Positions 9,612-50,372 of a DNA stretch of 64,000 nucleotides are shown in pieces; within the stretch, counting starts at the first letter, position 1; each line of letters begins with the position of its first letter. The notes below the pieces were generated by a model. That model searched no databases. It was not told the DNA's origin and saw nothing but the letters and a program-made list of their open reading frames with translations. The stretch is from Clostridia bacterium (GTDB lineage Bacteria; Bacillota; Clostridia; Christensenellales; Borkfalkiaceae). Where the stretch lies: positions 124,001 through 188,000 of the forward strand of contig JAFQJB010000007.1 of NCBI GenBank assembly GCA_017397305.1, given 5' to 3'. The translations under genes and the position numbers were made by a program.

Positions 9612-9687
9612 CGGGGTATGGCGCAGTTGGTAGCGCGCTTGTCTGGGGGGCAAGAGGCCGTGAGTTCAAGTCTCGCTACTCCGACCA
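9612..9687 (+). tRNA. tRNA-Pro (anticodon GGG)
   Basis: 76 bases including an encoded CCA. The acceptor stem CGGGGTA pairs with TACTCCG (one G-T wobble). The D arm is GCGC..GCGC, the anticodon loop CTGGGGG gives GGG, and the T arm is GTGAG-TTCAAGT-CTCGC. All expected stems form. The last 18 bases are repeated exactly at 9803 and 9953. Confidence 0.96.
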
Positions 9688-9691
9688 ACAT

Positions 9692-9721
9692 AAAACACAA
9701 TGGTTTTATCCATTGTGTTTT
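9692..9721 (+). terminator. Terminator directly after tRNA-Pro
   Basis: AAAACACAATGG / CCATTGTGTTTT with a 6-base loop and further T residues after it, 4 bases beyond the CCA end. Confidence 0.88.
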
Positions 9722-9802
9722 TTGTTTTATTTGGGGTAAGTGAGGCTTGGACGTAGTGCATATACGAACGCAGTGAGTATTGCGGAGCTTTAGCGTAGCA
9801 AC

Positions 9803-9820
9803 GTCTCGCTACTCCGACCA
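9803..9820 (+). repeat. Second copy of the tRNA-Pro 3' tail
   Basis: GTCTCGCTACTCCGACCA is identical to positions 59-76 of the tRNA at 9670-9687, 133 bp downstream. The rest of the tRNA is missing. The tail pairs with upstream CGGAG (9783-9787) and TAGCG (9791-9795) to form a bulged hairpin. Confidence 0.9.
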
Positions 9821-9828
9821 ATTATAAG

Positions 9829-9861
9829 TAAGGCAAACTTTTTAGTTTGTCTTATTTTTTT
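9829..9861 (+). terminator. Terminator after tail copy 2
   Basis: TAAGGCAAACT / AGTTTGTCTTA with a 4-base loop followed by seven T residues. Its sequence differs from the terminator behind the intact tRNA. Confidence 0.82.
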
Positions 9862-9952
9862 GTCTTTAAACCCAGAACTCACGACCTACGGCCGAGAGAC
9901 GCGATTGACGTTTCACGTAGCAATCGCTATTCCGTCATTTCATTCCTTACAA

Positions 9953-9970
9953 GTCTCGCTACTCCGACCA
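9953..9970 (+). repeat. Third copy of the tRNA-Pro 3' tail
   Basis: The same 18 bases again, 150 bp after copy 2; identity extends 3 bases further upstream (CAA). A degenerate direct copy (TCGCTATTCCG, 9924-9934) and a degenerate inverted copy (about 9890-9904) precede it. No gene is seen in 9688-10063; the block is entirely these tail-terminator units. Confidence 0.9.
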
Positions 9971-9972
9971 AC

Positions 9973-10008
9973 AAAAAGCACAATAGTCTTTTGGCTGTTG
10001 TGCTTTTT
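9973..10008 (+). terminator. Terminator after tail copy 3
   Basis: A 14-bp stem (AAAAAGCACAATAG / CTGTTGTGCTTTTT, one G-T pair), followed by T-rich sequence. Confidence 0.85.
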
Positions 10009-10057
10009 GTTTTATTTGGAATTATCACTTTAGCATTGTTTTTATATTAAGTAAAAC

Positions 10058-32427: not shown

Positions 32428-32460
32428 AAAAAAGCGACAAGATTTTCTTGTCGCTTTTTT
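32428..32460 (-). terminator. Terminator after the duplicated tRNA-Leu tail
   Basis: A 15-bp stem AAAAAAGCGACAAGA / TCTTGTCGCTTTTTT begins at the CCA end of the tail copy. A further inverted repeat (GTCAAATT / AATTTGAC, 32405-32425) lies beyond it. Nothing else is seen in 32348-32605. Confidence 0.85.
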
Positions 32461-32477
32461 GGTGCGAGTAGCAGGAC
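32460..32477 (-). repeat. Second copy of the tRNA-Leu 3' tail
   Basis: Minus-strand GTCCTGCTACTCGCACCA equals the last 18 bases of tRNA-Leu (32606-32623), 146 bp downstream of it. The rest of the tRNA is absent. The copy pairs with GTCC, GCTAC and TCGC segments at 32482-32506 to form a bulged hairpin. Confidence 0.9.
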
Positions 32478-32567
32478 GCTCGTCCGCTTCGCTACCGAGT
32501 CCTCGCCCGTCAATGATTGTCCATCAAATGACGGATGAACGACAGGTTAATTCACACACTACTTAAA

Positions 32568-32608
32568 CCAAATCAAAAAGGCACGATTTACGTGCCTTTT
32601 TGATTTGG
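32568..32608 (-). terminator. Terminator of tRNA-Leu, stem including the CCA end
   Basis: A perfect 18-bp inverted repeat (CCAAATCAAAAAGGCACG and its complement, loop ATTTA). Its tRNA-side arm includes the CCA of the tRNA. Confidence 0.85.
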
Positions 32609-32688
32609 TGCGAGTAGCAGGACTTGAACCTGTACGGTTGCCCACTAGAACCTGAATCTAGCGCGTCTGCCAATTCCGCCATACTCGC
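32606..32688 (-). tRNA. tRNA-Leu (anticodon CAG)
   Basis: 83 bases with encoded CCA. Acceptor GCGAGTA / TACTCGC, anticodon stem CTAGA / TCTAG with loop TTCAGGT (CAG), a class II variable arm, and T arm ACAGG-TTCAAGT-CCTGC. Only 15 bases separate its 5' end from the stop of the upstream gene, so it may be processed from that operon transcript or use a weak promoter inside it. Confidence 0.96.
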
Positions 32689-50024: not shown

Positions 50025-50372
50025 CTCAAATAAAAAATAAAAGCAAGGTGCGAAAACGCAACTTGCTTATTTTTACAAAGCCAATAATTACACTTAAATA
50101 GTGTTTTTTGGATTGCAATATTGGTTTTTTGAGAGTCTATATAGCAACAATACTTTTACTACTCTTTATTGACCGTTTCACAAGTCTGCGATTACGCATA
50201 TTCGGTTATAAAGTAACCAACTTATAAAATTTGAGCTTTTAACTCAATCAATAAGGCGGAAAGTTCCGCTTTTCGGCAGTGGACCCGGCTGTCCGTATGG
50301 CCTTTACCCTTAAACGTTTGGGTGGTCCAAAATTATCGCTTGGAAAGACTCTTTTTTCCTTAGATTCAATCC
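50025..50372 (-). ncRNA. Structured potA leader of unrecognised class (candidate riboswitch)
   Basis: About 350 nt of untranslated RNA. Elements seen on the minus strand: 5' GGTGG (50371-50375) able to pair with CCACC (50321-50325); a three-way junction closed by GGACC/GGTCC (50281-50328) with two hairpins; GCGGA/TCCGC (50256-50269); TTGAG/CTCAA (50231-50247); a second compact junction (50182-50223) with TGCG/CGCA and GGTTA/TAACC hairpins; then an A/T-rich stretch and the terminator. I do not recognise it as a T-box, SAM, lysine, M-box or other class I know. A polyamine-responsive role is inference from the genes it controls. Confidence 0.6.
50028..50068 (-). terminator. Intrinsic terminator in the potA leader (attenuator)
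   Basis: AAGCAAGTTGCG / CGCACCTTGCTT (one mismatch) with a TTTT loop, then TTATTTTTTATTT on the minus strand. It ends at the potA ribosome binding site, so in the folded state potA would not be transcribed. Confidence 0.85.

Follow-up and report, generated by a model that had tools for sequence, protein, structure and literature searches.

tRNA genes are the most common landing sites of mobile elements. Integrative elements leave partial tRNA genes at attR (PMC9897764), and such att remnants resemble the units described here in that duplicated tRNA 3′ ends lie behind an intact tRNA gene. The remnants flank kilobase elements with an integrase, whereas the present units are ∼130–150 bp long, are devoid of genes, carry inverted arms and have bodies that are shared between tRNAs. 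The last 20 bp of a tRNA gene recurs in additive flexible genomic islands, which, together with tycheposons (PMC10872708), resemble the units in their tandem accretion between tRNA tail copies. These islands and tycheposons carry cargo genes or a XerD-type recombinase; the units have neither, with no cargo genes between their tail repeats, but instead contain inverted copies of the T-arm.

REP and BIME sequences are short, dispersed, mosaic hairpin repeats near the 3′ ends of genes and are linked with RAYT. The units are likewise short, dispersed and palindromic; however, REP/BIME are not tRNA-specific, their arms are not copied from the neighbouring gene, and a search for the Y1 transposase (PF01797) in the genome studied here returned no match, the controls being positive. 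Integron attC sites are imperfect palindromes kept by structure, with cassettes arranged in arrays. The units share the structure-kept imperfect palindromes, the arrays and, in one case, addition next to the tRNA, but integron cassettes have IntI and genes, while no IntI was found alongside the units, which lack cassette genes and have arms set by the target tRNA. Known repeats bring their own ends to a new site, and to our knowledge no bacterial repeat with ends owned by its target has been described. A search of the open-access literature, with subscription papers outside its scope, found no published description of the units. We regard them as a kind of dispersed palindromic repeat, and there is a real chance that their way of acquiring ends is new.

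The locus was found in a window of 64,000 nucleotides, the whole stretch of DNA analysed, from a Clostridia bacterium (GCA_017397305.1). The gene of tRNA-Pro(GGG) is located at 9612–9687 on the forward strand, as identified by ARAGORN and Rfam, and its last 18 bases (GTCTCGCTACTCCGACCA; 9670–9687, positions 59–76 of the tRNA) recur exactly at 9803 and 9953, with a spacing of 133 and 150 bp. With up to three mismatches allowed, the window contains no match besides these three, and 100 dinucleotide-preserving shuffles of the window gave a mean of 0.01 matches at the same threshold; the recurrence is therefore not due to chance. Every tail copy is followed by a terminator-like hairpin (9692–9721, 9826–9857 and 9970–10011), the first lying directly 3′ of the tRNA and the third being related to it (77% identity over 62 nt, tail included).

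Two units make up this array, both on the forward strand and both with an inverted tRNA piece. The first consists of a left arm at 9735–9752, recognised by eye as a degenerate reverse complement of the T-arm and tail, a body at 9753–9802 (family A) and a right arm at 9803–9820, which is an exact copy of tRNA positions 59–76. Genome-wide searches matched the family A body only 3′ of tRNA-Pro(GGG), in five genomes with a pattern and at 10 loci with a profile. In the second unit, an inverted copy at 9875–9887 is complementary to tRNA 9655–9667 at 12 of 13 positions (92%) and is followed at 9890–9898 by a partial copy, in direct orientation, of the tRNA stretch immediately 5′ of the T-loop (GGCCGAGAG, where the tRNA has GGCCGTGAG), a layout shared by other units of its family. 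Its body (family B, 9898–9949; GACGCGATTG...CAATCGCTATTCCGTC...TCCTTA) is also present 3′ of Arg, Ala, Asn, Thr, Ser and Leu tRNAs, in addition to Pro. The right arm at 9950–9970 is an exact copy of C56 to A76, so that the second repeat extends to 21 nt. Neither the A nor the B unit of this locus folds better than shuffled sequences. Another unit of the window lies on the reverse strand behind tRNA-Leu(CAG) (32460–32623), with the tail at 32606–32623, a terminator, an F2-type body and an exact 18-base tail copy at 32460–32477. Elsewhere in the window, 50273–50328 on the reverse strand matched the Streptococcus sRNA SpF59 family of Rfam at 64.5 bits, above the gathering score.

The 3′ flanks of the tRNA genes were examined across the whole assembly (G000, 1.39 Mb). 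Of 24 tRNAs whose 3′ flank could be read for 100 nt or more, about 14 carry the same layout, in which a terminator is followed by an inverted, sometimes direct, copy of the T-arm, a hairpin body of 50–110 bp and a direct copy of the tail, which often runs through CCA and often has a further terminator after it. The copies match their own tRNA: the own-flank sum for direct copies was 559 against a permuted mean of 343, and for inverted copies 408 against 329, with none of 20,000 permutations reaching the observed value in either case. At several loci the tail, the terminator and the inverted tail form one long palindrome, most clearly at tRNA-Gln of the nearest useful relative (G018). Counting back from A76 in standard numbering, the F1 and B bodies have a right copy beginning at C56 or 57, and the A, F2 and Glu/Gly/Tyr-type bodies one beginning at 59. 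The left arms of F1 terminate at T54, and some B units have there a direct copy of about positions 45–54 instead. Given these junction positions, the bodies sit inside a duplicated tRNA 3′ end, at the T-loop.

The sequence-only reading had described the Pro(GGG) array as gene-less units joined in the T-loop, each restoring the tRNA end and bringing a terminator. This description was borne out, as the search and shuffles confirmed the exact copies and the hairpin behind each of them, no gene was found in the units, the body–arm junctions fall at 54, 56 or 59, and the genome-wide survey that it had called for revealed similar tails behind other tRNAs. The inverted tRNA piece in each unit was no part of that reading. 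One locus in G000 (L003, in the region of G000:C22:33501) contains a tRNA-Pro 3′ fragment that breaks off close to the anticodon, and behind it lie three units belonging to different body families. In this assembly, many contigs start less than 200 bp from a tRNA gene (C4:83, C9:166, C11:64, C19:109 and C22:123), and contigs of relatives likewise end inside or at tRNA tails (G003 C5/C1, G014 C11), a pattern suggestive of assembly breaks caused by strain variation or by repeats at these places.

Comparison of the flanks with each other revealed a few body families common to different tRNAs in G000. Family F1 was searched with a model of the body without its arms and was found in 33 of 41 congeners. 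The 40 distinct copies lying behind tRNAs represent eleven specificities (Ser, Leu, Lys, Pro, Gln, Thr, Ala, Glu, Arg, Val and Gly). Their right arms match their own tRNA over a median of 18 nt and other tRNAs over a mean of 5 and a maximum of 10 nt (n = 40); for the left arms, the median is 11 against a mean of 5.4. In 29 of the 40 the distance to the tRNA is 51–72 nt, that is, one terminator away. All six F1 copies found genome-wide in G000 lie behind tRNA tails, and the bodies at its Leu(GAG) and at a Pro(CGG) fragment are 95% identical, with right arms that differ and match locally. Searches with the B core gave the same picture of shared bodies and local arms. One body thus occurs behind many tRNAs, with arms that match the local tRNA each time. 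Only the F1 and B searches and one of the A searches were independent of tRNA location; the other A counts and the F2 counts derive from loci fetched for their tRNAs.

Some F1 copies lack a full tRNA nearby; one lies behind the end of a tmRNA (L259), others follow ICE ends that carry a tRNA tail (L256 and L269), the rest are mostly near contig ends, and two copies (L253 and L270) show no upstream tail. Unpaired motifs (GGAG, CGG...GG and CACAGG) are conserved in the bodies, which suggests that some protein or RNA recognises them.

Beyond the genus, F1 extends to a second genus in the family and to one genus of another family of the order, and B is present in a third family. The exact B core was found, among 391 genomes across the class, only in this genome and in one from another family of the order. 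The named records are Clostridia MAGs from the ruminant gut. An assembly artefact was rejected, since separate projects and different hosts yielded independent named MAGs in which the units are found again; independent assemblies show units as well as empty sites. Carriage by phages was also considered and set aside, as the sole IMG/VR match to the B core sits in phage structural genes and looks like chance. A genome of another family (G041) has a differing tail array at tRNA-Thr(CGT) (L206), in which tandem copies begin from the variable loop and the hairpin body is different; this is possibly a related phenomenon. In the same genome, the 3′ half of tRNA-Ile(GAT) (GGTCGGTGGTTCGAGTCCACTTTAGCCCACCA) is repeated in tandem behind the gene, with a ∼50 bp spacer (L143).

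At tRNA-Pro(GGG), G018 lacks exactly 150 bp relative to G000, corresponding to the second unit and terminator 2, which is the kind of precise size difference between strains that had been anticipated from the window, and relatives with an empty site at this tRNA exist. The terminator lying immediately behind tRNA-Lys in G000 is separated from the tRNA by an extra cassette in G018, which shows that cassettes are able to enter adjacent to the tRNA; the terminator of this cassette is unrelated to the older one. Near-identical units form arrays, with three units at Leu(GAG) in one locus (L261) and a further array at a Thr tRNA (L281). The similarity between the terminators flanking a unit exceeded the 95th percentile for randomly paired terminators in 12 of 59 pairs, several of which are tandem arrays. 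At Leu(GAG), the F1 units of G000 and G018 have opposite orientations, the inverted one of G000 lying beyond an integrated element of ∼9 kb. That element (L279, G000:C1:38000–50000) ends on its far side with a tail from about G52, followed by the inverted F1. No insertion or movement was seen as such, the comparisons being species-level differences between metagenome assemblies.

We interpret the units as a dispersed, gene-less DNA hairpin element that collects behind the 3′ ends of tRNAs and tmRNA and has its arms rewritten to the host tRNA, a reading to which we assign a probability of roughly 55%. On this view, a tRNA 3′ end would be duplicated, with the body lodging in its T-loop. Either recombination or template switching in the conserved region of T-loop and tail may give rise to the direct tail copy, and fold-back copying at the terminator hairpin to the inverted one. 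Hairpin-templated correction would then keep the tRNA tail, the inverted copy and the direct copy alike, and established units could spread within arrays and between strains via recombination between tails. A counter-point is the unrelated terminator in the G018 Lys cassette, which would not result from simple local copying. Also weighing against this reading are the small share of terminator pairs that stand out from random ones, the few G-T pairs in the arm stems, the conserved unpaired motifs, the A and B units that fold no better than shuffled sequences, and comparisons in which no movement was seen. The more specific proposition, that the units are a class of mobile DNA hairpins homing to tRNA T-loops, with terminal arms templated by each new target, is put forward tentatively and at somewhat less than even odds.

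The chief rival, which we regard as doubtful, holds that the units are minimal cassettes or att scars of a tyrosine recombinase crossing over in the T-loop, either XerS or the integrases of passing ICEs. The 7-nt T-loop would serve as the overlap and the T-stem as the arms, and folded single strands might recombine in the manner of attC. It is consistent with the junctions at 54, 56 and 59 inside the T-loop, the duplication of the tRNA 3′ end at the junction, the precise gain or loss of a 150 bp unit, the tRNA-proximal entry of a cassette with its own terminator at Lys, and the integration of ICEs at tRNA ends in these genomes. However, no dedicated enzyme was found: a PF00589 search of G000 recovered only a XerS-like protein (L277) and one ICE integrase at tRNA-Ser, neither of which adjoins units, and no integrase gene lies in the units. 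Furthermore, the tRNA is retained from about G52 onwards at ICE ends, a larger part of the T-arm than in the F1, F2 and A units, which begin at 56–59. The same bodies with matched arms behind many tRNAs, eleven specificities in the case of F1, are not expected of a fixed attP core for one tRNA, and would require the core site to be altered for each tRNA. The inverted arm is not explained by such a recombinase alone. The suggestion, made from the window, that the array represents scars of a tRNA-targeting integrase was therefore not upheld. The ICE integrase itself (L278, G000:C25:48–1262; ∼404 aa) lies directly 3′ of tRNA-Ser(CGA) with no hairpin unit between.

The central helix of F1 is 97.4% paired across 54 distinct sequences, compared to at most 53% in slid controls, and double-sided changes were seen at nine of its 10 pairs. 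RNA stems normally evolve via G-U intermediates. G-T pairs account for only 2 of 540 in this helix, in comparison with 98 of 825 (11.9%) in the T-stems and 61 of 1155 (5.3%) in the acceptor stems of tRNAs from the same genomes; the terminal arm stems are also mostly Watson–Crick, with 9 G-T of 306. Double-sided change almost without G-T pairs points to DNA palindromes rather than RNA, and fits a palindrome that hairpin copying keeps perfect or that is under selection as single-stranded DNA. The tRNA-Gln genes of G000 and G018 are unlike at one T-stem base, and in each genome both copies in the unit, inverted and direct, follow their own tRNA, which is concerted change.

These observations, together with the palindromes of tail, terminator and inverted tail, can also be accommodated by mutation alone, in which the hairpins of terminator and body undergo quasi-palindrome template switching that makes and homogenises the copies, and no element moves between loci. 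We consider this improbable, as local mutation cannot yield near-identical bodies at different tRNAs, in different species and in different families. Less probable again is a functional RNA in the tRNA 3′ trailer, acting as a processing, termination or regulatory structure. The strong folds predicted for F1 (z of about −5 to −6) and the location behind tRNA terminators are in keeping with such a role, but G-U pairs are almost absent, the units lie past the terminator, their presence among species is patchy, they also occur behind ICE ends with a tRNA tail alone, and the Rfam matches above the gathering score near the units were only tRNA and 5S rRNA, with no family for the units themselves. 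Finally, the gradual decay of a tandem tRNA array, which had been named as the observation that would overturn the integration account, was not seen and has next to no likelihood, since anticodon and D-arm remnants are absent, the junctions keep to the T-loop, among relatives there are empty sites as well as differences of precise units, and the same bodies at unrelated tRNAs contradict it, with the qualification that, besides the tail copies, some B units do keep tRNA positions from about 45 to 54 upstream of the body.

On the reading of the units as a dispersed DNA hairpin element with locally rewritten arms, they are most likely selfish or neutral repeats that do not serve the tRNA, and they would be tolerated because the tRNA retains an intact end and a terminator. 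If this reading is true, they would account for stray tRNA tails in genome annotations and would provide a natural system to study fold-back copying or single-strand recombination at hairpins. They would further constitute an unrecognised source of variation adjoining tRNA genes.
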